Origin: a virus
Direction: 5' to 3' (one strand)
Virus record (IMG/VR): IMGVR_UViG_3300045996_002560
Location: 1 to 64,000 of that record
DNA: 64,000 nucleotides
Below, in pieces: positions 8,216-52,970 of this stretch. How positions within the stretch are numbered: position 1 is the stretch's first letter; the number at the start of each line of letters is the position of its first letter. Below the pieces are notes generated by a model. The model saw only the letters and a list, made by a program, of their open reading frames with translations. It did no database searches and was not told the origin of the DNA. The translations under genes were made by a program, and so were the position numbers.

Positions 8216-8766
8216 TGTTCGACGTAATGGTTGATCTGGAAACGACTGGGCTACGCCCGGACCGAACGGCGATCCTTCAGATCGCGGCAGTTAAGTTCGA
8301 TTATGAGCGGGAGACAATCGACCACGGGTTCTTCGTGCGCTCGCTGCGTGTTCCTCCACACCGTCACTGGGACGAATCCACCCGCGACTGGTGGGGCAAG
8401 CGCTCTACCACCTACCGAGAGATCGTCGCACGAGCAGAGAACCCTTCTGAGGTCATGCAAGACTTCGCAGACTGGGCTGGGTACAACCACCCCCAGACTC
8501 TGCGGTTCTGGGCGAAGCCGATCAGCTTTGATCATGCCTTCGTCGAGTCCTACTTCAACGACTACGGTATCCACTCACCTTTCGATTACCGGCACACGGT
8601 AGACATGAAATCGTGGATGAGCGGGATGCTGCACGGCTGGACACGCAATCAGATCAACGACGAGCTTAAGAAACTTCCCTTTGAAGGCGTCGAGCATAAC
8701 GCACTGTACGATGTACTCCATCAGATCAAAGAGGTATTTCACGTGAAGGCTCTCAAAAATGCGTAA
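8215..8766 (+). CDS. DEDDh 3'-5' exonuclease
   Basis: A 183-residue exonuclease of the ribonuclease H-like/DnaQ group. Exo I is VDLETTG at about 7-13, Exo II lies in ISFDHAFVESY near 102-112, and Exo III contains H and D in EHNALYDVLHQI near 160-171. The sequence between motifs (RDWWGKRS) resembles phage and mycobacterial small exoribonucleases of the Rv2179c type. It may trim RNA or single-stranded DNA ends during replication. It overlaps the following membrane gene by 8 bases. Confidence 0.82.
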   Translation: MFDVMVDLETTGLRPDRTAILQIAAVKFDYERETIDHGFFVRSLRVPPHRHWDESTRDWWGKRSTTYREIVARAENPSEVMQDFADWAGYNHPQTLRFWAKPISFDHAFVESYFNDYGIHSPFDYRHTVDMKSWMSGMLHGWTRNQINDELKKLPFEGVEHNALYDVLHQIKEVFHVKALKNA

Positions 8767-9283
8767 CCTTACCTTTGTCTGGACCGTCTTGGTCAACCTG
8801 ACCGGGGCGGCGCTGGTCCTGATGTTCTATCTCCAGGGCTGGCTTGTCCCAATCTACGCGACCGACACCACCTATGTCACCTACGCCATGTCAGTGCTGT
8901 TCCTAACGGCGGTTGGGCTCTGTCTGCATTCCGCATGGTGCCTAACCCGCAGTGCACCCCCCACTGGTCGGAGCTTCGAGTTCCTCACCAAGTTCTACGA
9001 GGACGCCCTCTCCGCTCCCACCCAGCTGAAGGATGCTATCCCTCTGCTGGGCTTGATCGGTACCATCGCGGGCTTCGCCCTGGCTCTGGCTCAGGTCGAT
9101 CCCAGTGTTCTCGCGAAAGGTCAGAGCGAGATGGTCATCTCCATGTTCGCTCTCATCCAGGACATGGGGGTCTCCCTGATCAAGACGGCGCTCGGGGCAC
9201 TCCTCGGCGGCTGGGTCTGGATAAACCTGTTCATCCTGGAGCGGCGTACCTTCTCCCTCACCGCGGAAAATGCGGATGTTTAA
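8759..9283 (+). CDS. MotA/TolQ/ExbB-like proton-channel subunit
   Basis: A 174-residue polytopic membrane protein with hydrophobic segments at about 8-28, 36-60, 98-117 and 133-160. The segment PLLGLIGTIAGFALALAQ followed by VSLIKTALGALLGG matches the paired helices of the MotA/TolQ/ExbB family, which surround the ion-carrying Asp of a MotB/ExbD/TolR partner. The next gene encodes just such a single-pass protein. Presence in a phage replication block is unexpected. It could energise an envelope process or a defence-like device (compare ZorA/ZorB). The long cytoplasmic tail of ZorA is absent. Confidence 0.72.
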   Translation: MRNLTFVWTVLVNLTGAALVLMFYLQGWLVPIYATDTTYVTYAMSVLFLTAVGLCLHSAWCLTRSAPPTGRSFEFLTKFYEDALSAPTQLKDAIPLLGLIGTIAGFALALAQVDPSVLAKGQSEMVISMFALIQDMGVSLIKTALGALLGGWVWINLFILERRTFSLTAENADV

Positions 9284-9884
9284 GAACCGTCTCGTGGCCC
9301 TCGTCTTTCAGGATGTTCTCACCCTGGTGATGGTGGCTTTCGCTGTGGTGGCGCTATGTGCCATCATGCTGATCAACGTTGCACGTTCCACCAACTCTGC
9401 AGCTGCGGCAGCAAAGCCCACTGGCACGATGATAATAGACGCCATCTGGGATAAAGAACTCAACGCGGATGTCGATCTCTGGGTGAAAGCCCCAGGCGAC
9501 ATCCCGGTCGGCTACTCCAACAAGGGTGGGTTGATCTTCAACCTGCTCCGTGACGATCTCGGGCATTACATGGATGTGTCCTCAACCAACATGGAAACGG
9601 CAATTGCCCGAGGGCTCCCTACTGGAGAATACATTGTCAATCTCCAATTCTACCGAAACCGTTCTGCCCGATCCGATATGCCAGTCAAGGTGGTGATTAC
9701 GCAGACACTGCCTAACACGCCGCCCAAACAGATCCTTGTGACGGATGCAGTGCTTCCCTTGGAAGGTAAGGAGATCACCGCCATGAGGTTCCAACTGGAC
9801 GACAATGGCAAGGTCGTCCCGGGCAGTGTCGACTCCCTCTACATTCCCCTTCGGGCTGCAGACAGCAAAGGTGCCGCACCGTGA
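9270..9884 (+). CDS. ExbD/MotB-like single-pass partner protein
   Basis: A 204-residue protein with one N-terminal membrane helix at about 16-38. An Asp in FQDVLTLVMVAFAVV sits at the start of that helix, the place of the ion-binding Asp in MotB, ExbD and ZorB. The rest (about 50-204) is predicted periplasmic and beta-rich, with DADVDLWV-like spacing (NADVDLWVKAPGD) not typical of OmpA peptidoglycan-binding domains. It overlaps the channel gene by 14 bases. The partner role rests on topology, the Asp and adjacency rather than on strong sequence identity. Confidence 0.6.
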   Translation: MRMFKNRLVALVFQDVLTLVMVAFAVVALCAIMLINVARSTNSAAAAAKPTGTMIIDAIWDKELNADVDLWVKAPGDIPVGYSNKGGLIFNLLRDDLGHYMDVSSTNMETAIARGLPTGEYIVNLQFYRNRSARSDMPVKVVITQTLPNTPPKQILVTDAVLPLEGKEITAMRFQLDDNGKVVPGSVDSLYIPLRAADSKGAAP

Positions 9885-10396
9885 TCATCATCCCTCCCTT
9901 CTATCTGGTCGCACTGGCCATCAGCCTCATCACGGTGGCGGTCGGTATTTGGGGAACCCGGCGGAACTGGAAGCTTGTCGGGGTCTTTCTCGTCCTCTAC
10001 GCCGGGTCTATCAGCGTTTCCTATTTCGCTTTCGCCGACATCCTCGGGAAGGCAAAGCCGATAAGCCTGGAATACTGGGTTTCCTCCGCCGACGAAGCGA
10101 CCGTTCAGGGGGCCGTGATCCGTGAAGGTGTCGGCATCTTCATCTACATCGAGGTCCCTGGCGTGCCGGAGCCCCTGAGCTACAAGCTGCCCTGGCGCCG
10201 AGATTTCGGTCAACAGCTCCAGGACGCCCTGGCGCAGGCCCAAAAGAACGGAACCGGCGTCAAGATGCGACTGCCGTTCGAGCCTACCTGGGATGGTCGC
10301 GAAACCAAGTTCTACGCGATGCCCCAACCGAGGAGGCCCCAGAAGGTTCAGCCTGAAGGGGAGGAGCCGCCTCAGCGAGTGGAGAGAAGCGCATGA
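9881..10396 (+). CDS. Third membrane protein of the channel cassette
   Basis: A 171-residue protein with two N-terminal membrane helices (about 5-22 and 30-50), then a soluble domain and a Pro/Glu/Arg-rich tail. It starts in a 4-base overlap with the ExbD-like gene and its stop overlaps the SbcD-like gene, so the three membrane genes form one translational unit. No known family recognised. It may be an accessory or effector subunit of the putative channel. Confidence 0.65.
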   Translation: MIIIPPFYLVALAISLITVAVGIWGTRRNWKLVGVFLVLYAGSISVSYFAFADILGKAKPISLEYWVSSADEATVQGAVIREGVGIFIYIEVPGVPEPLSYKLPWRRDFGQQLQDALAQAQKNGTGVKMRLPFEPTWDGRETKFYAMPQPRRPQKVQPEGEEPPQRVERSA

Positions 10397-20146: not shown

Positions 20147-20362
20147 CTAGAACACCACCGCTGCGGTGATTGCCACCAATGCGGCGATCGCCGTATACAT
20201 CCACCAGTGACCAGCCGTGTAGGGGTCCACCCTACAGAACTCCACAGGAAGGTTGGTCACTGCGTGGGGTATATCCTTCCATCCCAGGCGCCCGCGGCTC
20301 TCTTCATGCCGCGTCCAAGGGTGCCGAATATCCCTGACTAACCTGTCGATATGTTCCTTCAT
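20147..20362 (-). CDS. Small protein with C-terminal membrane anchor
   Basis: Seventy-one residues with a hydrophilic N-terminal part and one hydrophobic segment at about 52-71 reaching the C-terminus. The start overlaps the tailspike stop. It is the last gene of the late minus-strand block, converging on the tRNA. A tail-anchored lysis or exclusion role is possible; nothing specific is seen. Confidence 0.62.
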   Translation of the reverse strand: MKEHIDRLVRDIRHPWTRHEESRGRLGWKDIPHAVTNLPVEFCRVDPYTAGHWWMYTAIAALVAITAAVVF

Positions 20363-22713
20363 TACTCGCGCACCAGTTGCAGCATTGCTATGACCGGCGT
20401 GCTGTCGGCTATGTTGGCGCCGCTGGCGTTGGTTGCCTTGACGGTGATGGTGTTGTCAGCCGTGACCACCGGTCGGTGGATGATCAGCCCATCGTCGGGC
20501 GCCGACAGCAGGCGCAGCTCGGCCGAGTCGACGCCTGCCTTGGCGCCGGTGATCGTCACGGTGCCGGACGCAGTGGCATCGGCGTTGACGGCGGTGAAAT
20601 CGAGGCAGGCGACGGCCTCGAACATGTGACCCCACTTCTTGAGCGCCTTGCCAGTGCTCGACGGGTCATGCAACGTCGACACCGAGACACCAAAGCTCAA
20701 GAAGAGCACGACGCCCAATGCCGCGGCAGTCGTCTCGGTATCGGTGTCGGTCGTACGATAGGAGATCGTCGTCGATGTGACGGACTGGATCACCGTTTCG
20801 CTGTCGGTATAGCCCGTGCCGTTGCAGCGAGTCTGGATACGCATGCCGACCTTGAGGCTGTGCGTGCCGATCGTCAGGGTCACCATGCCGCCCGTCTTGG
20901 CCCGATGTGTGATCGTGTAGGTGCCTGGCAGAACGGTGCCGGTCGCTTCCTTGGCGAGCGCCGAGGTGCCGGTCGTGTTGGCGACCTTGAAGGTGTGCTG
21001 ATTGATGACATGAGAGACGGTGTAGGGAGTGGCGCTCGAATAGCCCGAGTTGGTGGCGCTCGGAATGCAGAGCGGATCACCAACGCGGAAGAAATGCTTC
21101 TCCTTGGTGTAGATCGTGGCATGCGTCGTATCGCGACTGACGGCGACGATATTGAGCGCGGCCGAAGCCCAGGCCCGCACCATCTCACCTTGCGTGTTGA
21201 TCTTCTCGAAGTATACCCGACCCGAGGCGTCGGCGTCGCTGTCGCGCACCGGCACGAGACCAGAGGCGCGCACGGAGCTGGTGGTGCCGATGACGGTGGT
21301 GTCGCGCGCGTGCAGCACCTCAACAAACCAATCTTCGCAACCGCTTGGGTTGTCGATCAGCACCGCGTTCGTGGTCGTGCCCAAAACGACCGTGCCGTGA
21401 TCCGTGCCGGAAGGCAAGGTGCCGGGGCTGCTGGTGCCGCCATCGACCGCGAAGCTGAACTCGTCGTAACGGGCGGTCTCGCCGGCGAGCGTCGCCTCGT
21501 CGCTGACACTGATCGCCGTGACGGTATGGGCGCCATTATAAGCCGCTTCGGCAAAGCCGGCCACGGTCACGGTGTCACCGACCTTCAGGCCATGACCGAC
21601 GTTGTTCAATTCCTCGCTGTCGAATACATCAATTCGGGCCGTCGCGACGCCGCCAGTCTGGGCAATCTCAACGATCTTCTGTCCGCCGACAAAGCAGCTG
21701 TCGACCTGCATGTTGGTGATGCGACCTATGCCGCGGCCGCTGACGCCGACGAAGCCGCTGCGCGAGGTCAGACCGTCGAAGGTAGTGCCGCCGCCGAGCA
21801 GCGAGACCTTCTCGAAATGGACCTTCGCCGTGACTTCGAGGCAGTTGTCAAACAGGAGCGGGCGGTCCATGCACAGGGCGTGCTCGCAGTTAATCTGGAG
21901 GAAATCGCCCTGAAATGCATTTCTGACCCGTACCAGGCCCCACACACGCTGCCGCACACCGGCGCTGATGTGCCAGTTGCTGAACACGTTGCCGGTGCTG
22001 GGCGTGAGATCCATGCCATATTTGAGATGATCGTAGGCGCGGATGTTGGCGACTGTATTGCTGAAGAAGCTCGGAGTGCCGCCGGACGTATGAAAGCTGT
22101 ACATTCCACGAAAGCCGCCGATTATCAATAGATCGTCATAAATATTGAAAAAACAGCTATCTTCGCAGGTAATACATGATGCATCCGTTTCGTCCTCTTC
22201 GGAATAGGGCGCGAACTTCACTGTCAGGCCGCGAACCTCAGTGTAGCGCCCGCCCGTGCGCAGGATCGGGCCGTCGGCGTTGACCCGCTGAATGATCGAC
22301 TTGCCGCGCCCCATGCCGACGATACCGACGCGAGCATCGGTTGAACCCACGTTGCGCAGATCGATCTCGTCTTCGATCGAATAGACACCGGGGGGGATCA
22401 GGAGCGGCAACTTGGCCGCGAGCGCCTGGGCCGCAGCGGCCTGCAGCTCGCTCGTGCACTCATTGTCACCGGTGGTGTCGACCGTCGTCCAATCGAGGAT
22501 CGAGACACCCTTCTCACGGACGGCTCCCGCAATCGACCGGGCGCCTTGACCCGTGTCGGTGTCGGCGGGGAGGGTAACTGCGGCGCCAAGAGCGTCCTGA
22601 TTAACCTTCCCGCTTCCTCGTGTACGACTCTCGAAGCTGATCAGAGCGTCAGAGGGAAGGTCATCGAACTCGAGACCAGCGGTTTCTTTGTTAAGCTGCG
22701 TGAAAGTGGTCAC
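20362..22713 (-). CDS. Tailspike-like protein 1, beta-helix
   Basis: A 783-residue tail protein. Residues 1-40 (with DDLPSDALISF and RTRGSGKVN) are nearly the same as in the protein at 48666-50651 and probably form the virion anchor. From about 75 the pattern of a pectate-lyase-type right-handed beta-helix begins (TSELQAAAAQALAAKLPLLI, then VYSIEDEIDLRN and repeated short strands). The C-terminal half is rich in Thr/Ser/Val strands with VGDTVTVAGF-like and FRVGDPL repeats. Such proteins bind and often cut host polysaccharide. Start is GTG with GGAAAAC upstream, overlapping the previous stop. Confidence 0.82.
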   Translation of the reverse strand: MTTFTQLNKETAGLEFDDLPSDALISFESRTRGSGKVNQDALGAAVTLPADTDTGQGARSIAGAVREKGVSILDWTTVDTTGDNECTSELQAAAAQALAAKLPLLIPPGVYSIEDEIDLRNVGSTDARVGIVGMGRGKSIIQRVNADGPILRTGGRYTEVRGLTVKFAPYSEEDETDASCITCEDSCFFNIYDDLLIIGGFRGMYSFHTSGGTPSFFSNTVANIRAYDHLKYGMDLTPSTGNVFSNWHISAGVRQRVWGLVRVRNAFQGDFLQINCEHALCMDRPLLFDNCLEVTAKVHFEKVSLLGGGTTFDGLTSRSGFVGVSGRGIGRITNMQVDSCFVGGQKIVEIAQTGGVATARIDVFDSEELNNVGHGLKVGDTVTVAGFAEAAYNGAHTVTAISVSDEATLAGETARYDEFSFAVDGGTSSPGTLPSGTDHGTVVLGTTTNAVLIDNPSGCEDWFVEVLHARDTTVIGTTSSVRASGLVPVRDSDADASGRVYFEKINTQGEMVRAWASAALNIVAVSRDTTHATIYTKEKHFFRVGDPLCIPSATNSGYSSATPYTVSHVINQHTFKVANTTGTSALAKEATGTVLPGTYTITHRAKTGGMVTLTIGTHSLKVGMRIQTRCNGTGYTDSETVIQSVTSTTISYRTTDTDTETTAAALGVVLFLSFGVSVSTLHDPSSTGKALKKWGHMFEAVACLDFTAVNADATASGTVTITGAKAGVDSAELRLLSAPDDGLIIHRPVVTADNTITVKATNASGANIADSTPVIAMLQLVRE

Positions 22714-22991
22714 TTCGTTTCCTCTAGTATGCGCCGCACGCTGTTTAATTTATTCCGGCAATCCTCACCGGCTGCGTCCACCATAGCAAGGTGGTTCATG
22801 ACATCTGCGTCAGTGACTATCTGCGCCGACGTGGTGACCGGTCGGGCATTACACGTCAGCAGGTGCCCGCTTATCTTAGGGCTTTCCACCTGTATCCTGG
22901 TGACTATCTTCGGCTCGGGGCGCGTACAGCTGGTCAATAGCGTCACGAACAAAAGGAGCAGCAGGGCGATCTTCATTGGTTTCTCTGGCAC
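22710..22991 (-). CDS. Outer-membrane spanin lipoprotein (Rz1-like)
   Basis: Ninety-three residues. A short basic start, a hydrophobic stretch IALLLLLFVTLLTSC and a lipobox ending in Cys at about 22 predict a lipoprotein. The GTG at 22991 has GGAGG seven bases upstream and is preferred over the ATG at 22976. Its first 116 bases lie inside the spanin inner-membrane gene in another frame, the classical embedded Rz/Rz1 layout. It should disrupt the outer membrane at lysis. Confidence 0.8.
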   Translation of the reverse strand: MPEKPMKIALLLLLFVTLLTSCTRPEPKIVTRIQVESPKISGHLLTCNARPVTTSAQIVTDADVMNHLAMVDAAGEDCRNKLNSVRRILEETK

Positions 22992-23277
22992 GCTTGGTCC
23001 TCCTTGTGACCGCCGCGACTAACTCCTTCTGTCTTTCTGTTGCGTCACGAAGGCGAGTTATCTCTTCGTCCTGCTTCTTCAGGAAGCGTTGCATCGCCTC
23101 CACGGCAGTCTTGTTCGCCTCCGCTACCTCGCTGACCGTCTTGAGCCGCTCCGCCTGGAGGGTGTAGTCAGCGACCATCGAACGGATCTGGAGCTTCTGC
23201 CATCCTACTGCCACCAGAAGCAGCAGCAGGATGGCTCCGAAGAAGCCCCAACGGTTCATGAACAAGCCGGCTATCAT
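22876..23277 (-). CDS. Inner-membrane spanin (Rz-like)
   Basis: With the ATG at 23277 (ATGA overlap with the upstream stop) the protein has 133 residues. A single N-terminal membrane helix near 8-28 is followed by a long alpha-helical, coiled-coil-like periplasmic region rich in Glu, Lys and Arg. Overlap with an Rz1-like lipoprotein gene makes the spanin call solid although Rz sequences vary widely. Confidence 0.8.
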   Translation of the reverse strand: MIAGLFMNRWGFFGAILLLLLVAVGWQKLQIRSMVADYTLQAERLKTVSEVAEANKTAVEAMQRFLKKQDEEITRLRDATERQKELVAAVTRRTKRARETNEDRPAAPFVRDAIDQLYAPRAEDSHQDTGGKP

Positions 23278-26159: not shown

Positions 26160-27685
26160 TATCGGTACACCGAAAGGTAGGCTGCGGAAGCGACCGCGTT
26201 GAACTCAGGCATCGGGTTCGCATAGATGTGATGCCACTGCTTGGTGGTACCCGCCTGGAAGTAACACTCGTAGAACAAGTGCTCCTCATACTCGTCGAAC
26301 AGGGCTTTCATTGCCACAATGAAGGGCGCCCTGTTTGACTTGTCGGTCGCAACGAGAGGCAGATTGGTGACGCCCCACTCGGCAACAGCCCACTTCTTAC
26401 CACGAGCGCGCGCGAACTTCGCGATGCCTCGAGGCCCAGTCACCATCCCGGTGGTGGTGTTGTAGTCGCCCATGAAGCCGTTGGGGTTATCGACGTAGAA
26501 GCTCCCGGTGAAGCTGTCGTAGGCGTCGACCGAATAGATGTCCGCGCTCTCCGGAGCCCAGAGGGCCAGCGGGCGGGTGATGTTGCGCAGGCAGTTGAAC
26601 TCCAGCACGGCACCCGGCAGCTCGGCACGATAGATAGCGGCGATGCGGTTCCAGCAAGCCTTGTAGGCAGCCGCCGTCTCGGGCGTGTTCGCCGTCTGCA
26701 CCGCCCCGTCCTGCCAGCTCCACGGGTAGCCAGCGTTCGCCTCCCAACCGAGACGGATCACCACCATGTTGGTGCCGAAGATCAGGGCCAGCTTCCTGGC
26801 GTTCGCCACGTGGTAGGAGTCGAAGTCACCGCGGGCGCCCTCGACATACTGCCGGGCGTTCGGCAGGCAAAGGAGGGGCACAGCGATCGTCCAGGGGTTC
26901 AGGCCCATGGCGACGGAGTCGCGCAGCAGAGTATGAACCCAGTTGCTCGCCAGCGTAGGCCAAGAGTTGATGATCGTGTCGCCCATGAAGGCGCTGTGGA
27001 TATCGGTCGGGCGTCCACGCCACGCCGCAATCGCGATCTGACCATCGCGTTGGCTGGCGGGTGTGTTGGTCTGAAGACGGAACCCGGAGCGCCAAGTCAG
27101 GCGCGATGCGAACCGATGGACAGGGGCGTCCACCACGGTTGTCATTGCCGTCTCGTTGCGCAAGGTGGCGCCGACCGGGTTGGTAAGCGTGACGGCTACA
27201 ACCTCGTCACCCTCGAGCTTGCGGTCGCCCTTCAGGGCTACCTCGATGCGGGCTTCCTTCTGCCCCTCTGACAGGGTCAGCGTCCCAGCGGGCAGAACAC
27301 CACCGAGGAAATCGTCGGCAGCCACGGTGCCGCCCACGCTCCACTCCAACATCACGCTCGGGTCCACATCACCATGGCGGGTCACAATGAACGTGACGAA
27401 CCGTGTCGTATGCTGGTCCTCCGCCACGGTCGGAGACAGGGCAGTAATCTCCAGCTCAGTCGGAGCGCGCATCGACTTCTCGAGCGCCTTCACCGAAGCC
27501 AGAGTCGCCTCCAGGGAGGTATCCTCGTCCTCGTAGTCCGCCGTGCAGTCAGCAACCAGGATGCCCAGCTCAGCCTTCACCTCGTCGACATTGAACAGCA
27601 GCATGGCCTGCCGCTCAACATTCTCTTTCTTCATGGCTTCGAGCTTGCTGATAATCTCAAGCACCTTGTCGTGCTGCACGGTCAT
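26159..27685 (-). CDS. Calx-beta plus GH26-like glycosidase
   Basis: A 508-residue protein. Residues 1-70 form a helical, coiled-coil-like start; about 75-185 is a Calx-beta-like domain (GDVDPSVMLEWSVGGT, LEGDEVVAVTLTNP); 190-508 is a TIM-barrel-like domain. IRLGWEANAGYPWSW (E315) and WAVAEWGVTN (E436) look like the acid/base and nucleophile of clan-A beta-mannanase-type enzymes (GH26). It shares domain order and catalytic pattern with the next protein in the operon, so the two are diverged paralogues. Likely cuts capsule or exopolysaccharide. Confidence 0.7.
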   Translation of the reverse strand: MTVQHDKVLEIISKLEAMKKENVERQAMLLFNVDEVKAELGILVADCTADYEDEDTSLEATLASVKALEKSMRAPTELEITALSPTVAEDQHTTRFVTFIVTRHGDVDPSVMLEWSVGGTVAADDFLGGVLPAGTLTLSEGQKEARIEVALKGDRKLEGDEVVAVTLTNPVGATLRNETAMTTVVDAPVHRFASRLTWRSGFRLQTNTPASQRDGQIAIAAWRGRPTDIHSAFMGDTIINSWPTLASNWVHTLLRDSVAMGLNPWTIAVPLLCLPNARQYVEGARGDFDSYHVANARKLALIFGTNMVVIRLGWEANAGYPWSWQDGAVQTANTPETAAAYKACWNRIAAIYRAELPGAVLEFNCLRNITRPLALWAPESADIYSVDAYDSFTGSFYVDNPNGFMGDYNTTTGMVTGPRGIAKFARARGKKWAVAEWGVTNLPLVATDKSNRAPFIVAMKALFDEYEEHLFYECYFQAGTTKQWHHIYANPMPEFNAVASAAYLSVYR

Positions 27686-28401
27686 TATCGCACTTCCTCC
27701 TTTTCAGGATTAATAAGCTTGCGCAGACGCTTGTTGCGGCTGGCGATGAATAGGATCACGGCGAAGCTCACGACACCGCAGGCGACGGAGAACCAAGGCA
27801 GCAGGGTGTCCATGGTGCTCGTCGCGACCACGACATTGTCGTATGTTTGCTTCGCTTCCGGCAGGGAGGCCATAATGTCCGGAGCTATCGAAGCCGCAGC
27901 GCCGGCAATGCTGGCCACTGCACCGACCACCTTGGCAGTCTTCGTCTTCGCGCCGTTCACCTTCGAGCCGGGAATTTGCAGCCCGGCCAGGATCAGACCG
28001 GCATCGATGGTCGCGTCGTCGTAAGGCTGGTAGCCCAGCTCGTGCTTGATAATCGCCAGCACGAGTCCACGCATGGTGTACCACTCGTAGACATCGGTCG
28101 GTGCGTCCGCCGTCCTACCCAGGGACGTGGCCACGGCGTTGATGTAAGCACCGGTGTTGTTCTCGACCGGAGGCGCCCAGCGGTCGATAATCTCCCGCAC
28201 GCTGTCGATGTTATGTTTGTCTTGGTAGGTGATCAGCACCCGGCAAATGGCACGGACGCCCCACTTCGGCTCCGTGAAGACGACAAAGCGAGGGTCGCTC
28301 GACTGATCATCAGCCTGACCCTGCCATCTTACTCCGGCAACCCGGTCGATATTACCGGGATTTTTATTCCGCTCGCCACGAGCGCTGTCACCAGTCGTCA
28401 C
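27685..28401 (-). CDS. Putative murein hydrolase with C-terminal membrane helix
   Basis: A 238-residue protein. The first 130 residues, with GERNKNPGNI, W-x-GQ, FVVFTEPKWGVRAICRVL and RWAPPVENNT, match the catalytic or recognition pattern of a family of phage virion-associated lysozyme-like proteins. An Ala-rich linker follows and a membrane helix near 203-222 ends in a basic tail RNKRLRKL. The anchor is unusual for an endolysin and may hold it in the inner membrane, or the protein may be a holin-lysin hybrid. The location next to the spanin cluster supports a lysis role. Confidence 0.65.
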   Translation of the reverse strand: MTTGDSARGERNKNPGNIDRVAGVRWQGQADDQSSDPRFVVFTEPKWGVRAICRVLITYQDKHNIDSVREIIDRWAPPVENNTGAYINAVATSLGRTADAPTDVYEWYTMRGLVLAIIKHELGYQPYDDATIDAGLILAGLQIPGSKVNGAKTKTAKVVGAVASIAGAAASIAPDIMASLPEAKQTYDNVVVATSTMDTLLPWFSVACGVVSFAVILFIASRNKRLRKLINPEKEEVR

Positions 28402-47266: not shown

Positions 47267-47328
47267 GGTGTATATTTCATAGTGAATTCTAATAGATCAA
47301 GTGGTGTACAGGATGTAAAGTGCGGCGT

Positions 47329-47733
47329 TCATGCAAGTTTTACCGGTGACCGTGCGGTGCTCGGCATCCCTGTGCGTCTCGGATGGAACACCGGACATTC
47401 ACCGCGGTCTGACAGCGGGCATTGCAGCTTCTGCAACAGATCAAAGGCACCCTGAAGAGCACTCAATTCCTTCTCAACTTCCCGAAGGATCTTGGTGTTG
47501 TGGTTGACTTCACCACGAAGCGCATAGTTTTCGCCTCTCAGCTCTTCACGCTGTCTTTCCGCCATGTCGTAGATGTCGCGAACCGTCTTGTCGCCCAACG
47601 CCTCGAGGTCAATCTTGTCCTTCTTACGGGCCACCCGATAGGTGATGAGACCAGCGAAGATGCCACCGATCGTGGTGGCCAGGGTGCCAGCTAGAGCCAA
47701 CCCGCCCGGAGAAAACAGAAGTTCAATGGACAC
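47329..47733 (-). CDS. Membrane-anchored coiled-coil protein
   Basis: A 134-residue protein from the GTG at 47733 with GGGAGG six bases upstream. One membrane helix near 11-33 is followed by a long charged coiled coil (about 45-100) and a Cys-containing tail. It could pass for a spanin-like or holin-associated protein, but a spanin pair already exists at 22.7-23.3 kb. It is the last gene of a three-gene membrane cassette. Confidence 0.62.
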   Translation of the reverse strand: MSIELLFSPGGLALAGTLATTIGGIFAGLITYRVARKKDKIDLEALGDKTVRDIYDMAERQREELRGENYALRGEVNHNTKILREVEKELSALQGAFDLLQKLQCPLSDRGECPVFHPRRTGMPSTARSPVKLA

Positions 47734-48220
47734 GTCCAACCTCCCAGGAAATCAACATCAGGGAGGTCATGCTTAACGTGGCGAAGGAGCCGTATTGCCA
47801 CGGAGCCAGTGCGTCAGGAACCGCGGCGGTGGTGAACGTCAAAAAGCTCCAGAACAGAAGCGCCGTCGCCGTAGCACCGAAGCGCCAGTGACCCCCAAAG
47901 CGAAGCGACAGTAGGTGAGCAAGCGCCAGGGATATCAGAGCGGCCGCCCAGACAGGCTGAGGGAGAATGGACAGCAGCATGTCAAAAACAAGACTTGAGT
48001 TACGCTCCATCAAGCCAGGGGTCACCGCCAAGCCGAGCCCCATGGCCAGCGATATGACCCCGAGGCAACACTCGAACGCAGGGACGCAAAGAATCGCCAT
48101 CCGGCACAACCGGCACGGCCGCGGGCTGTTGCCCAGGTTCCAGACCGAAAGCAGCGGTCGGAACGTGAAGGCAATCGCCGTTCCACCAGCGAGGGACAAC
48201 AACAATACATACCAGATCAT
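47723..48220 (-). CDS. Polytopic membrane protein with Cys cluster
   Basis: A 165-residue protein with about four to five hydrophobic segments (about 2-20, 38-66, 78-105, 118-135, 145-160). Residues 34-54 contain five Cys in CRLCRMAILCVPAFECC, a candidate metal or disulfide site near the first helices. The start overlaps the stop of the ETR1-like gene by 4 bases, suggesting they act together. No known family recognised. Confidence 0.6.
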   Translation of the reverse strand: MIWYVLLLSLAGGTAIAFTFRPLLSVWNLGNSPRPCRLCRMAILCVPAFECCLGVISLAMGLGLAVTPGLMERNSSLVFDMLLSILPQPVWAAALISLALAHLLSLRFGGHWRFGATATALLFWSFLTFTTAAVPDALAPWQYGSFATLSMTSLMLISWEVGRVH

Positions 48221-48570
48221 GTGCTCTCAAACCTTGACCGAGCCCGCCAGAATGCAATAGCCGTCAAGATCGAGACCAGAGCCATGATGGTGACGATTAA
48301 CGCGAGGAGATAATATGACCAGGTGCCCACGAACATAGAGAGCACCATTGCGAAGTGTGCCAGCCCACAGGCGACCACGAATATTTGGATCAACCGTGTG
48401 CGAGAGCGGGTCACGCCCAGCTGCTTGGACGCCAACTGAGTCAGCGACATGGGAATAACCAGATAGGCGATGCCTGTCAGCACGTGGCCAATGGCCAGCA
48501 CCCAAACGAGTGCTGGATCGGCGTAGAGACACATAACGTGCGGTGCAAGATCAGCTATGTGGTTCATCAT
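48217..48570 (-). CDS. Ethylene-receptor-like (ETR1-type) membrane domain protein
   Basis: A 117-residue protein with three or four membrane helices. The N-terminal PHVMC, then LTGIAYLVIPMSL and FVVACGLAHFAM follow the pattern of the ethylene-binding domain of ETR1 and bacterial relatives (PHG-x-C, AY-x-x-IP-x-x-L, CG-x-x-H). The copper ligands Cys65 and His69 of ETR1 correspond to C68 and H72, and Tyr32 to Y36; the position of Asp25 holds His (H29). No kinase, GAF or other output domain follows. Known bacterial examples are parts of sensor kinases, so a stand-alone phage version is unusual. Assignment by eye. Confidence 0.6.
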   Translation of the reverse strand: MMNHIADLAPHVMCLYADPALVWVLAIGHVLTGIAYLVIPMSLTQLASKQLGVTRSRTRLIQIFVVACGLAHFAMVLSMFVGTWSYYLLALIVTIMALVSILTAIAFWRARSRFEST

Positions 48571-48592
48571 TAAGCCAGTATGTAGTGGCGGT

Positions 48593-48649
48593 TCAATCTA
48601 AACCAAGGGTTATAATCAAACGTCTATTGAGCTGCGTGAAGGTGGTCAC
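48593..48649 (-). pseudogene. Tailspike gene fragment (5' end only)
   Basis: The sequence from about 48662 to 48625 repeats the ribosome-binding site, GTG start and first eight codons (MTTFTQLN) of the tailspike genes at 22713 and 50651, then diverges and stops after 18 codons. It lies just past the 3' end of the 48666-50651 gene. It looks like the remnant of a second tailspike cassette, lost or replaced by recombination. Confidence 0.8.
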
Positions 48650-48665
48650 TTGTTTTCCTTGAGCA

Positions 48666-50651
48666 TCAAAGCGGGGAGACACCAACCACGCCGGCCGAGA
48701 ACGTCACGGTGGCGCCGAGCCGGTTGACGAACATGACGGTGCCGGCATTGGTCGTGCTGACCAGGAACTCGCCGGCCGAGCCGCTGGCGCTGCTGATCGT
48801 GCCGGTGAGCAGGTTGAAGTCCGCATGCTCCGAGATTGCCCCGATGGACGGCGTGCCCACCGTCTTGCAGGCAACAACCGCCTGCCGGATTGTCCCGGCA
48901 TGCACGGCCACCAGCAAAGTGAAGTAGTCGACCGGAGGGCGGAAGATCACCGTGGCGTTGTTGGCGACCGATCGAGTGATGTAGGTGTTGCTTTCGATCA
49001 GCCTGCCATTGCTCTGACAGCCGATCTGGAAACGGGTCGAGCGCGCGACGTTCTCCAGCGGCTCGACATGTCCGCTCGGCCAAATGGTGAAGTCTTCGAG
49101 GAAGTCGGTGCCGTTGTGTGCCGTGAACTCAACTGCGTACTTGCCATAGGCGACCGACTGGCCACTGTCGGCGCGAACGACATAGCCGGTGATACCCGTG
49201 CCGGCGACTAGGCAGCTTGCCCGGATCTTGAGTGGGCCGTGCATGTGGTTATGCCGGCTGGGCGAGGCGTTGGTGTTGTAGCCGCCGTAGAACTCGTGAT
49301 TGACCCAATGCCGCAGCTCGTACATGTCGGCATTGATCTTCAGATCGCAGAAGCGGGCCGTGCCGCGCCAGACATCATGTCGGCCTGTCGAATTGCGCAC
49401 GCGGACATTGCCGACCACGCCATAGGCGGCATTCGAGCAGATCGGCGCGAAGCCGTCCGTGACCGTTGTTGGCTTGCCGCAATCGATCAGATTGACATTG
49501 CTCAGCGAGATTTCGGAAACGGTGCCCTCGGCTACCGGATCGGCCGAGAACTCACCCCAGAGCAGCAGACCAGCCCACTCCGAGCCTTGCACCACCACGT
49601 TGGAGATCAGGCAGCCATTGGTGTAGGCGTCGTTGCTGGTGCCGCCCTCATAGGTGATGCCAATATCGGCATTCTCGATGAACAGCCCATCAACGATGTT
49701 GCGCCGCGGGCCGCTCTGGAGCGAGACGCCCTTGCCGCCGCCGCGACCGATGTCCGAGACGCTCGACAGCAGCGCCGCGAGATGCGCGCCACCGTGTCGG
49801 ACATTGCAGATCTTCAGCCCGCCGCCGATGAACAGGCGATAGCCGGCGCCGCCAAGATCGGAGCGACCCGAGGCGCCGATCGCGTTGCAGTTGCCGATGA
49901 AGTTGGCGTCCAGCGTGCCATGGCCGAACACGGCGACATCGACATCGGAGCGGATGCGGACCAGTCCGCCCTCGTCATCGTCGTTCGCCGCGATCAGGTT
50001 GCCCTCGACCTGCAAGGACACGTAGTCCTCCAGGTCGATCTGCACGTCGGCCAGGAGCGTGAACCCGGCGGGCAGCAACAGGAGCTGCTTCTCTTGCCGC
50101 GCCGTGGCGCGCGCCGTTGCCCAGTCGATCATGTCCTGGATGGCACCGCTGGCGCAAGGGCCAACCAGCACATCACCAGCCGTGACCGTGGTGAAGGCAG
50201 CGGCACTCAACTCGACCGTCGTGGCGTTAGTGACGCTAGCGATCGTCGCCGCATGCGTGGTGGCGCCACCGACGCTGAATGTGAAGCTGCGCCCCGCCCC
50301 GGCGATCGTCACCCGCTTGCCGACATCAGCCGACGTGAACGAGGCGCCCGTGACGACAAGCGTCGCATCGGCAGCCGTGATCGCACCCGCCGCCGCGAAC
50401 TTTTGAACGGCGGCCAGCTCCTCGTAATCGAACGGGGTCACCGCGTAGTCGGTGAGCTTGTCGGCCAAGGTGCGAGCACGGGGACGCCCCAAGGCTTCAT
50501 CAGCCGCAAGAGTTAACCCCCCGCCCAGCGTCTCCCGATTAACCTTCCCACTACCACGGGTGCGGCTATCGAAGCTGATCAGAGCGTCAGAGGGCAGATC
50601 ATCGTATTCGAGACCGGCGGTTTCTCTGTTGAGCTGAACGAAGGTGGTCAC
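48666..50651 (-). CDS. Tailspike-like protein 2, beta-helix
   Basis: A 661-residue protein. Residues 1-40 match the anchor of tailspike 1 (DDLPSDALISFDSRTRGSGK). About 75-150 is a small beta domain (GAITAADATLVVTGASFTSADVGK). A right-handed beta-helix with a pectate-lyase-like pattern follows (SGAIQDMIDWATARATARQE; VDGLFIENADIGITYEGG). The C-terminal 100 residues form a compact strand-rich trimer-like end. Expected role is binding or degrading host surface glycan. GTG start with GGAAAACAA upstream. Confidence 0.82.
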   Translation of the reverse strand: MTTFVQLNRETAGLEYDDLPSDALISFDSRTRGSGKVNRETLGGGLTLAADEALGRPRARTLADKLTDYAVTPFDYEELAAVQKFAAAGAITAADATLVVTGASFTSADVGKRVTIAGAGRSFTFSVGGATTHAATIASVTNATTVELSAAAFTTVTAGDVLVGPCASGAIQDMIDWATARATARQEKQLLLLPAGFTLLADVQIDLEDYVSLQVEGNLIAANDDDEGGLVRIRSDVDVAVFGHGTLDANFIGNCNAIGASGRSDLGGAGYRLFIGGGLKICNVRHGGAHLAALLSSVSDIGRGGGKGVSLQSGPRRNIVDGLFIENADIGITYEGGTSNDAYTNGCLISNVVVQGSEWAGLLLWGEFSADPVAEGTVSEISLSNVNLIDCGKPTTVTDGFAPICSNAAYGVVGNVRVRNSTGRHDVWRGTARFCDLKINADMYELRHWVNHEFYGGYNTNASPSRHNHMHGPLKIRASCLVAGTGITGYVVRADSGQSVAYGKYAVEFTAHNGTDFLEDFTIWPSGHVEPLENVARSTRFQIGCQSNGRLIESNTYITRSVANNATVIFRPPVDYFTLLVAVHAGTIRQAVVACKTVGTPSIGAISEHADFNLLTGTISSASGSAGEFLVSTTNAGTVMFVNRLGATVTFSAGVVGVSPL

Positions 50652-50665
50652 TTGTTTTCCTCTCG

Positions 50666-52648
50666 TTAAGCCGCCAGGGCGCCGGTCGATTTGAACACAG
50701 GCGGGCTCCAGCTGACCGCCAACCCCGACCCGCTGGCCGTGGTGGCAACGGCAAGGGTGACGGTGCTGCCCGAGATCGCCACGATTTTGCGCGCGGTCGC
50801 GTCGCCGCTAATCAGAAGGTATTGGCCCTTGCGCAGCAGAGTCGTGCTGCTGACCGATGTCAGGCTGGTGCTGGCCGCGGCTGTGGCTGTGATCGCCAGC
50901 GTGCCGACCGTGCCGGGCTCCGTGCAGATCGACTTCCAGTTCGATCCAGCGCTGGGCTCGGCCAGCTGGATCTCCTCGCCGCGCTCAAAGCTCAGCGCGG
51001 TTGCGGTCGGCGTCAAGGAAGACACGAGCCCCTTGGTCGAGGCGCCGATATTAATGTTCTTGGTGTTGGCGCTGTTCGAGCTGAAATACTGCGGTCCCAC
51101 AACTGTCCGCGTACCAGCCTCATTGAGGCCATAGCGATGCCGGCGCGAGCCGCTGTCCGTGCCGGAGAAGAAATTGCCGACGATGATATTCTCGACACCG
51201 GTGTTGCGAATGCCGTCATAGGTCGCGACACTGTCGCCAGAGTTCTGGCCGATCAGGTTGCCGGTCACGATGTTGCGCAAGCTGGCGGTGGCCAAGTCGA
51301 TACCGTCGCGCTCCATGCCGGTGATGTTGTTGCCTTGGATCAGGCAGTTCGCGCACTCGACATAGATGCCCTTGCCGTTGGTGTCCTGGTCGAACCCAGT
51401 GATCGTGTTGTTCTGGCAGGAGCCGCCGCTGTCCTCGCCCGATGCCGCGGCCAGGAGATTGATCACCCCCATGTACGAGTCGGCCGAGTGCCCCCCCTCG
51501 CAATTGTAGATGTTGTTCTCGCTGATACGGCTGCGCTTAGTGGTGCCAACGTAGAACCTGACGACCTGATCGGCCTGGTTCTGCTGCACCTGATGACCAT
51601 AGTCGTAGGTGCCGCTATCCGTGCCGGGGTCGATCCAGATGCACGAGGCGATGCTGTCCTCTGACTTGATCGAATAGGTGGTCGTCGCATCCGGCGTGAC
51701 CGTCCAGGCATCCTTGACCGTCGCTACCTTGGTCGTCGCGTTGTTCGCGGTGATGACACCCACCTGACCCGAACCAGTTCCGCCGGTCAGCGTGATGATC
51801 CGGCCCTTGTAGAGGTCCGTCGTGCCAGCGTTGTCTGAAGCCAAAGTGATCGTGCTGGCAGCACCAGCTTGTGCGGTGCCAGTGACCGCCGTCACGTGCA
51901 GGCCGCCGCCGGAGCTGTGGAAGCGGTTGCTGTAGATCCGCTCGCCGCGCTGCGTGTCAGAATTGCCAGCGTTCGCGGAGGTGGCCGCGGGCTCGACATA
52001 GACACCCTGCACGCACCCCGCATGGATGTTCCACGAGTATTCCCAATTGCGGGCGCGGACATCCAAGGAGCGATAGAGCCCGAAAAACGCGCAGCGGCTG
52101 ATCCAGCCGTCCCAGTCGGCGTTGTCGTTTGTGCGGCGGATCTTGACGCCGATGCAGGTGCCACCTTGGCCAGCGTTGAAGATGTCGCCGTCGCCGTAGA
52201 GCTGCATGCCCCAGAGTGAGAAGTTCTTGTACTCGGAAAAGATCAGGTTTTTGCCGGCTTCGACGCAACGTAGCTGTGGCAGCCGGAACCCCTGCTCACC
52301 AATCAAGGTGATGTCGGCGCGCGGGATAACGAGGCAGTTGCCGTCATTGTCGTCATCTGAGATCGAATAGAAATACTTCGGCCAGGAAACGAGGTTGTTG
52401 GCGGCTGGCGGCGGAAAGTACAGCGAGCCATATTGTGGAACCTGATCGAGTGCCGCCTGAATGCCAGCTGTGCTGTCGTTTGCGCCGGTCTCGTCAACAT
52501 CGAAGTCGCGGATATCGACCCGCATCCCGCCGGCCGATATCTTGTCCAAGATGGATCGAGAGATCTGCCCCGTAGCCGCATCGGCAGAGATCGACAGCGC
52601 CGTTGAGCTTAAATCAACCGGTGAGGGGAAGGAGATACGCTTGCCCAT
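50666..52648 (-). CDS. Tailspike-like protein 3, beta-helix
   Basis: A 660-residue protein with its own N-terminus (MGKRISFPSPVDLSSTALS), not the shared anchor. A beta-helix begins with VDETGANDSTAGIQAALDQV near 50-70, the typical start of pectate-lyase-like depolymerases, and contains short repeats like TGNLIGQNSGDSVATYDGI. A loop with TLTGGTGSGQVGVITANN suggests an inserted beta domain. A site at the C-terminus (TSVSSTTLLRKGQYLLISG) is a further beta fold. It may be attached to the virion through the small protein at 52648-52968. Confidence 0.8.
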   Translation of the reverse strand: MGKRISFPSPVDLSSTALSISADAATGQISRSILDKISAGGMRVDIRDFDVDETGANDSTAGIQAALDQVPQYGSLYFPPPAANNLVSWPKYFYSISDDDNDGNCLVIPRADITLIGEQGFRLPQLRCVEAGKNLIFSEYKNFSLWGMQLYGDGDIFNAGQGGTCIGVKIRRTNDNADWDGWISRCAFFGLYRSLDVRARNWEYSWNIHAGCVQGVYVEPAATSANAGNSDTQRGERIYSNRFHSSGGGLHVTAVTGTAQAGAASTITLASDNAGTTDLYKGRIITLTGGTGSGQVGVITANNATTKVATVKDAWTVTPDATTTYSIKSEDSIASCIWIDPGTDSGTYDYGHQVQQNQADQVVRFYVGTTKRSRISENNIYNCEGGHSADSYMGVINLLAAASGEDSGGSCQNNTITGFDQDTNGKGIYVECANCLIQGNNITGMERDGIDLATASLRNIVTGNLIGQNSGDSVATYDGIRNTGVENIIVGNFFSGTDSGSRRHRYGLNEAGTRTVVGPQYFSSNSANTKNINIGASTKGLVSSLTPTATALSFERGEEIQLAEPSAGSNWKSICTEPGTVGTLAITATAAASTSLTSVSSTTLLRKGQYLLISGDATARKIVAISGSTVTLAVATTASGSGLAVSWSPPVFKSTGALAA

Positions 52649-52968
52649 TACTTGCCCCAGATCACGGTCAGGTCGGGGCTGGTGGCACCGGTCAGGCTCA
52701 GAGCAATGGCGCTGTAGGAGAGAATATCCACGGAGTAGACACGATCCACGTCGAGATCGTCAGCACCATTGATGGTGATCCAGTGGGCATCCGTGGCCAG
52801 AACGGGGGTCTCTTCGTAGCTCACCTGTAGGGCGATGGTGCCGCTGCCCGCCGTGCCCTTAATAGCCACGTCGAAACTGTCACGCACCGAAGGCTTCGCA
52901 TTGGAGCGAAGAAGGACGCGACCATTGTCCTCCAGGGTGGATTCATTGAAATTGGTGGAGGTGGCCAT
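52648..52968 (-). CDS. Small virion-associated beta protein
   Basis: A 106-residue beta-rich protein (GTIALQVSYEETPVLA, YSVDILSYSAIALSLTG) between portal and tailspike 3 genes, overlapping the latter by one base. It resembles small phage proteins that adapt or decorate the head or tail. Function is inferred from place alone. Confidence 0.62.
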   Translation of the reverse strand: MATSTNFNESTLEDNGRVLLRSNAKPSVRDSFDVAIKGTAGSGTIALQVSYEETPVLATDAHWITINGADDLDVDRVYSVDILSYSAIALSLTGATSPDLTVIWGK

Positions 52969-52970
52969 AA

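Follow-up and report, generated by a model that had tools for sequence, protein, structure and literature searches.

Known ethylene receptors of plants, cyanobacteria, and other bacteria carry a fused kinase, and their sensor domain, here termed the ethylene-binding domain (EBD), corresponds to the Pfam family ETR1_N (Ethylene receptor 1-like, N-terminal domain). The residues that ETR1 requires for ethylene binding are D25, Y32, I35, P36, I62, C65, and H69. The copper site of ETR1 is composed of Asp25, Cys65, and His69, and Asp25 is among the residues needed (PMC12643061); in total, seven residues are needed for ethylene binding in ETR1 (PMC11819568). The window analyzed here (64,000 nucleotides, positions 1 to 64,000 of IMG/VR record IMGVR_UViG_3300045996_002560, a 65,773-base virus contig) encodes a small phage protein of this kind, hereafter the window sensor. 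It has the fold, the three helices, and the Cys65, His69, Tyr32, Ile35, and Pro36 positions in common with plant ETR1, Synechocystis SynEtr1, and Azospirillum AzoEtr1, and the N-terminal PHxxC motif in common with bacterial ETR1_N forms. Unlike ETR1, SynEtr1, and AzoEtr1, it is without a kinase or other output domain on its chain, shows the changes Asp25 to His, Lys91 to Val, and Ile62 to Val, and is encoded in a phage operon together with two further membrane proteins.

Three further systems are close to the window sensor. The split receptors of some bacteria (L113, L115, L116, and L118) resemble the phage forms in that the EBD is a small protein of its own, encoded overlapping or directly upstream of a membrane protein, whereas the phage forms carry a short coiled-coil protein in place of the kinase, have no response regulator, and evolve much faster. 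Class I holins have three helices and an N-out/C-in topology (PMC10865782); those of the lambda S105 type resemble the window sensor in size (approximately 100–120 aa), helix number, and inferred topology, and the relatives of the window sensor adjoin endolysins, but the window sensor has no holin-family similarity, has a conserved metal site, and is not beside an endolysin. The gp65 and gp63 proteins of the cultured Maribacter phages Molly and Colly, like the window sensor, match ETR1_N and adjoin a transmembrane (TM) coiled-coil gene; they differ in an additional C-terminal region of approximately 160 aa, in a position 3 bp before an amidase endolysin, and in having Asn for Asp25.

The window sensor and its locus

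The sensor gene begins with ATG and encodes 117 aa, of which residues 21–110 match ETR1_N in a Pfam-A hmmscan (E = 3.8e-12; 46.8 bits against a curated cut-off of 27). The first-pass annotation, made without database searches, had read this protein as an ETR1-type sensor domain with PHVMC, AYLVIP, and CGLAH motifs and no output domain; the profile match bears out the assignment, all three motifs are found in the sequence, and the chain ends 7 residues after the match, with no output domain on it. A better match to another membrane family had been named as grounds against the assignment, and none was found, the second-ranked Pfam family being at E = 0.054; PHROGs and NCBIfam gave nothing significant. 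The ETR1_N search returned 0 matches at E ≤ 0.001 among 14 control genomes. In tblastn against plasmids, the window sensor matched 17 records (E down to 5e-8), and the annotated matches are mostly N-termini of sensor kinases in Novosphingobium, Rhodovastum, Eleftheria, Blastomonas, and cyanobacteria; no close relatives were found in IMG/VR or the phage collection. It is thus confirmed, on solid grounds, that this phage gene encodes an ethylene-receptor-type sensor domain that stands alone. An artefact or chance match was rejected from the profile E-value and the conserved residues, and the loss of a fused kinase by frameshift was rejected as no kinase remnant was seen downstream.

The AlphaFold2 model of the window sensor (88-row alignment; pLDDT 84.2, pTM 0.71) has helices at 5–15, 19–47, 55–80, and 84–114, the last three being the membrane helices, with C68 and H72 one turn apart in the same predicted helix 2 (55–80). 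The N-terminus is acidic, the first loop contains K/R/R/R, the second loop is neutral, and the tail is R-rich, and these loop charges favor an N-out/C-in topology. In a Foldseek search of predicted viral structures, the top match was a 289-aa protein (TM-score 0.78, E = 1.6e-3, 25% identity), equal in length to Molly gp65, which was found independently; the lower-ranked matches, among them the best holin match, a Gordonia phage holin (TM-score 0.64, E = 0.47), are not significant. Sequence and fold searches of the PDB with the window sensor gave no significant match, and no solved structure of the domain surfaced; the phage proteins are very short natural EBDs and as such useful for structural work.

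In a 98-row alignment (A5), which gives the same residue pairing as the first alignment, Y36, I39, P40, C68, and H72 of the window sensor align with ETR1 Y32, I35, P36, C65, and H69, while H29, V65, and V93 stand at D25, I62, and K91. Five of the seven ETR1 ethylene-binding residues are therefore kept, D25 being His and I62 being Val. The earlier pairing of Y36, C68, and H72 with Tyr32, Cys65, and His69, with His at the Asp25 position, holds in this alignment, where the counterparts of C68 and H72 (ETR1 Cys65 and His69) are invariant in 98 of 98 rows. Because Asp25 is lost, strong ethylene binding by the window sensor appears unlikely; its Cys/His site probably holds Cu(I).

The major head protein of the window phage is approximately 53% identical to its counterparts in Caulobacter phage Seuss and Achromobacter phages JWF and 2-1. 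In Seuss, JWF, 2-1, and Lumi, approximately 50–640 bp separate the portal gene from the large structural gene next to it (phrog_37797 in 2-1), and here the window has an accessory stretch (Table 1) with two spike-like genes followed by the sensor, a 165-aa protein, and a one-TM coiled-coil protein. ETR1_N is absent from seven related records (Seuss, JWF, 2-1, Lumi, KB12-38, fJoAci01, and one IMG/VR contig), and the window sensor gene is therefore accessory. The sensor stop overlaps the start of the 165-aa gene by 4 bp (ATGA), and this gene in turn overlaps the coiled-coil gene; such consecutive overlaps agree with the first-pass statement that the sensor is coupled to a Cys-rich polytopic and a coiled-coil membrane protein. 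The 165-aa protein has no significant Pfam or PHROG match and no phage tblastn match. The coiled-coil protein weakly matches phrog_3671 and phrog_6664, both of which are also matched by the coiled-coil partner in contig L108, and searches for close relatives of the two neighbors gave none useful.

Table 1. Positions of the features discussed in the window and in other phage and bacterial records.
Feature	Record	Position	Strand	Basis
Three overlapping membrane-protein genes	Window	8759–10396		
Spike-like protein	Window	20362–22713		
Rz-like i-spanin, lysis gene far from sensor	Window	22876–23277	(-)	phrog_89 E = 2.3e-6
Virion-type endolysin with C-terminal membrane helices, far from sensor	Window	27685–28401	(-)	phrog_873 E = 7.2e-58
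Accessory stretch, approximately 5.7 kb, between portal gene and phrog_37797 gene	Window	47267–52970	(-)	Gene tables of relatives against window genes
One-TM and coiled-coil membrane protein, 134–136 aa; recurrent partner gene	Window	47329–47739	(-)	Crude TM/heptad rule
Polytopic Cys-rich membrane protein, 165 aa	Window	47723–48220	(-)	ORF; ATGA overlap with sensor gene
Stand-alone ETR1_N (ethylene-binding-domain type) three-helix membrane protein	Window	48217–48570	(-)	Pfam, AlphaFold2 model, conserved metal-site residues
C68-G-L-A-H72 codons, aligned to ETR1 Cu(I) ligands Cys65/His69	Window	48355–48369	(-)	Alignment A5
Tail-spike-like protein directly upstream of sensor, same insertion	Window	48666–50651	(-)	ORF; shared N-terminal anchor
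Second tail-spike-like protein (beta-helix), same insertion	Window	50666–52648	(-)	Beta_helix E = 0.0011, below curated cut-off
Coiled-coil partner	L108	3550–3903		
Coiled-coil partner	L109	7151–7474		
Coiled-coil partner	L106	8949–9251		
Coiled-coil partner	L022	329–709		
Coiled-coil partner	L023	6350–6586		
Coiled-coil partner	L110	8383–8682		
Coiled-coil partner	L114	6263–6769		
Coiled-coil partner, approximately 2.3 kb from sensor	L024	3273–3668		
Coiled-coil partner, gp64	Molly			
Tail genes, sensor, coiled-coil, further membrane protein, integrase	L114	5911–7164		
Stand-alone PAS-domain protein	L106	8504–8962		PF00989 E = 3e-7
EBD-HWE histidine kinase	L107	7950–9065		ETR1_N 5.5e-36, HWE_HK 9.8e-27
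Bacterial split receptor	L115	2993–5876		
Bacterial split receptor	L116	2891–5485		
Bacterial split receptor	L118	2951–5870		
Bacterial split receptor	L113	5832–7675		

Stand-alone sensors in other phages and bacteria

Beyond the window, stand-alone EBDs were found in nine further phage or prophage lineages, ten in total. Profile-guided scans of IMG/VR gave six of them, L019 (=L108), L020 (=L109), L022, L023, L024, and L025 (=L106), and a later scan gave L110; Molly and Colly were found by tblastn, and prophage L114 lies in a bacterial genome, its EBD beside tail genes and an integrase. All nine of the other phage proteins are above the ETR1_N Pfam cut-off, including Molly gp65 and Colly gp63 (289 aa, E = 1.5e-16), which are annotated as hypothetical proteins, and two further viral scans re-found the known loci and nothing else. 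The gene order of L114 is much like that of the window. In L106, the PAS-domain protein lies between the phage EBD and the coiled-coil partner, an order that resembles a receptor split into separate genes. A complete EBD-HWE histidine kinase is encoded by L107 (=L021; IMGVR_UViG_3300001199_000001), a 279-kb jumbo-phage contig, with no obvious response regulator adjoining.

The ten phage proteins, whose membership in the family is established, have a mean pairwise identity of 26% and six invariant residues (C14, Y36, F64, C68, H72, and S100 in window numbering). Asp stands at the Asp25 position in 4 of the 10 phage proteins, the other six having His, Gly, Asn, or Leu there, compared with 79 of the 91 cellular proteins (p = 0.002, with kinship between rows ignored). 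At the Lys91 position, K or R occurs in 2 of the 10 phage proteins and in 84 of the 91 cellular ones (p = 1e-6, likewise with kinship ignored). The end branches of the phage proteins are 1.2–3.2 changes per column long, compared with a median of 0.21. The family tree gives three changes, and because of its long branches and few columns, it leaves undecided whether the phages acquired the domain once or several times. Since the equivalents of Cys65, His69, and Tyr32 are strictly retained where nearly all else has diverged, a metal-dependent function is indicated, and the alignment may be read as selection for the metal site, accompanied by loss or replacement of the Asp25/Lys91 pair.

A one-TM protein with a coiled-coil or charged helical part is present in the same gene cluster as the sensor in all 10 loci and is no more than two genes away in 9 of them. 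A uniform crude TM/heptad rule identifies 7 of the 10 partners, those of L106, L023, and L114 being assigned by inspection only. Among 378 called phage genes, the same rule picks out 5, and four of these are neighbors of a sensor; short genes escape the home-made gene caller, so this base rate may be too low. The TM segment is N-terminal in some partners and C-terminal in others, and the partners may not all belong to one family.

Lysis genes are the other frequent neighbors. With a limit of 2.5 kb, chosen after the loci had been seen, an endolysin is close to the sensor in 6 of 8 assessable phages (chance P approximately 1e-4), the window phage having none so near, and in 7 of 8 (P approximately 4e-6) if the putative endolysin of L024, assigned by inspection alone, is counted. 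Adjacency is found in Molly, L109, L110, and L106 and probably in L023 and L108. In L109 (=L020), a GH108 endolysin has an ATGA overlap with the sensor stop; in L110, the sensor comes after an M15-type endolysin and 2-TM genes; L106 has a lysozyme-like protein (PHROG match, E = 5e-5), L023 a CHAP-like lytic enzyme, and L108 a muramidase approximately 2 kb away, the assignments in L110 and L023 falling below Pfam cut-offs. Prophage L114 and contig L022 have the coiled-coil partner and no endolysin in view. In the isolation paper of Molly, the amidase is the sole listed lysis gene, no holin is recognized, and unnamed proteins with 1–4 transmembrane domains are noted near lysins (PMC8776804). Downstream of the L109 sensor, a phrog_1544 membrane protein looks by eye like a three-TM holin, and the sensor therefore need not form the hole there.

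In cells, the best 80 EBD loci have long C-terminal fusions, except for contig ends and a few shorter frames, and in whole-genome searches of four classes (1,343 genomes), the EBD frames are several hundred residues long in almost every case. Most of the short cellular frames were inspected. In L113, L115, L116, and L118, a stand-alone bacterial EBD is overlapped or directly followed by a separate HisKA/HATPase_c membrane kinase, three of these loci also having a response regulator; L117, likewise bacterial, is probably a fused gene interrupted by a frameshift and was left aside. The first-pass statement that bacterial forms are fused to kinase or signaling domains is thus right for most of them, but not for these few, which are paired in operons with a separate membrane kinase, and it follows that an EBD can work in trans.

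Function of the phage sensor

The following roles had been suggested in the first pass: a copper or ethylene sink, a decoy subunit pairing with a host receptor kinase, and a sensor for superinfection or lysis timing. The explanation preferred here, which is put forward tentatively, is a trans-acting sensor subunit, probably Cu(I)-loaded, of a phage membrane or lysis-timing module that includes the coiled-coil partner. Topology, metal loading, pairing, ligand, and lysis-timing role would then be as follows. The sensor would cross the membrane with three helices, its N-terminus outside and its C-terminus in the cytoplasm, around a buried Cys/His site probably occupied by Cu(I). Its membrane partner would be the neighboring one-TM coiled-coil protein, which would stand in for the kinase of cellular receptors, and the pair would set the time at which the membrane or lysis machinery of the phage fires. 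One example would be a holin or antiholin gated by a metal or small ligand, with copper, oxygen/redox state, or a small gas as the signal.

Lysis timing is proposed because the sensor module most often sits with lysis genes, and it is the best supported of the suggested roles, most relatives being beside an endolysin. In the window, however, the endolysin and the spanin are approximately 20–25 kb from the sensor, which adjoins tail spikes instead, and the link to lysis in this phage would be drawn from its relatives and not from its own gene order. That the EBD occurs by itself in ten phage lineages, which keep the copper site while Asp25 and Lys91 drift, shows that the domain is useful apart from kinase output and perhaps apart from ethylene, and its usual place beside cell-bursting genes suggests reuse to help time host lysis. 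A more specific version, in which the Cu(I)-loaded EBD and its coiled-coil partner gate lysis on copper, oxygen, or a small gas as a previously undescribed metal-sensing lysis clock, seems rather doubtful. If the sensor regulates lysis, phages would time the death of the host via a metal- or gas-sensing membrane protein, an idea directly testable in the cultured Maribacter phages. The EBD fold family is known; its use by phages as a separate protein, in many cases next to lysis genes, is new, and a literature search of open-licence papers found no earlier report of it.

Action on the host is an unlikely alternative, in which the phage EBD and/or the coiled-coil protein would enter split or fused EBD-kinase complexes of the host and silence or rewire them as a decoy or dominant-negative subunit. 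The decoy idea of the first pass gains support from the bacterial split receptors, whose EBD, encoded with a separate membrane histidine kinase, makes action in trans possible; the full kinase of jumbo-phage contig L107 and the pairing of EBD and PAS protein in L106 also speak for it. Against it, any EBD is present in only approximately 7% and 3–4% of the sampled genomes of two proteobacterial classes, so most hosts would be without a target, the phage proteins have diverged far from host EBDs (approximately 30% identity), and the adjacency to endolysins is left unexplained.

Slightly less likely still is an ordinary class I-like holin or antiholin built on a borrowed EBD fold, with a Cys/His site that is structural only and no sensing. 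Since class I holins match in helix number and inferred topology, the sensor could itself be a holin or antiholin, and its size, the frequent endolysin neighbors of its relatives, the weak fold likeness to the Gordonia phage holin, and the lack of a recognized holin in Molly (PMC8776804) agree with this. However, the strict retention of the metal-site residues speaks for a function that depends on the metal, a further holin-like gene is present in L109, the window gene lies outside the lysis region of its phage, and searches of Pfam, PHROGs, and NCBIfam with the window sensor gave no match to a holin family.

It is improbable that the sensor is a factor for superinfection exclusion or membrane protection that is expressed with the tail-spike operon. 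Exclusion is often the task of small membrane proteins in this size range, and in the window and in prophage L114 the sensor comes directly after tail or spike genes, but the window sensor matches no exclusion-protein family, most relatives adjoin an endolysin, and exclusion would leave the conserved copper site unaccounted for. A copper or ethylene sink is most improbable and was rejected as the main role: the copper ligands are conserved, but there is no specific support for it, Asp25 is replaced in most of the phage proteins, a membrane protein of 117 aa that binds one metal would have little capacity as a sink, and the partner gene is unexplained.

Other genes of the window

The spike-like protein outside the accessory stretch and the one directly upstream of the sensor have nearly identical N-terminal anchors and different bodies, as if alternative receptor-binding modules were gathered. 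The endolysin-like protein possibly unites muralytic and holin-like parts. Among the three overlapping membrane-protein genes near the start of the window, the first weakly matches the MotA/TolQ/ExbB proton channels (E = 2e-4, just below the cut-off), and a channel of this kind is unusual in a phage.
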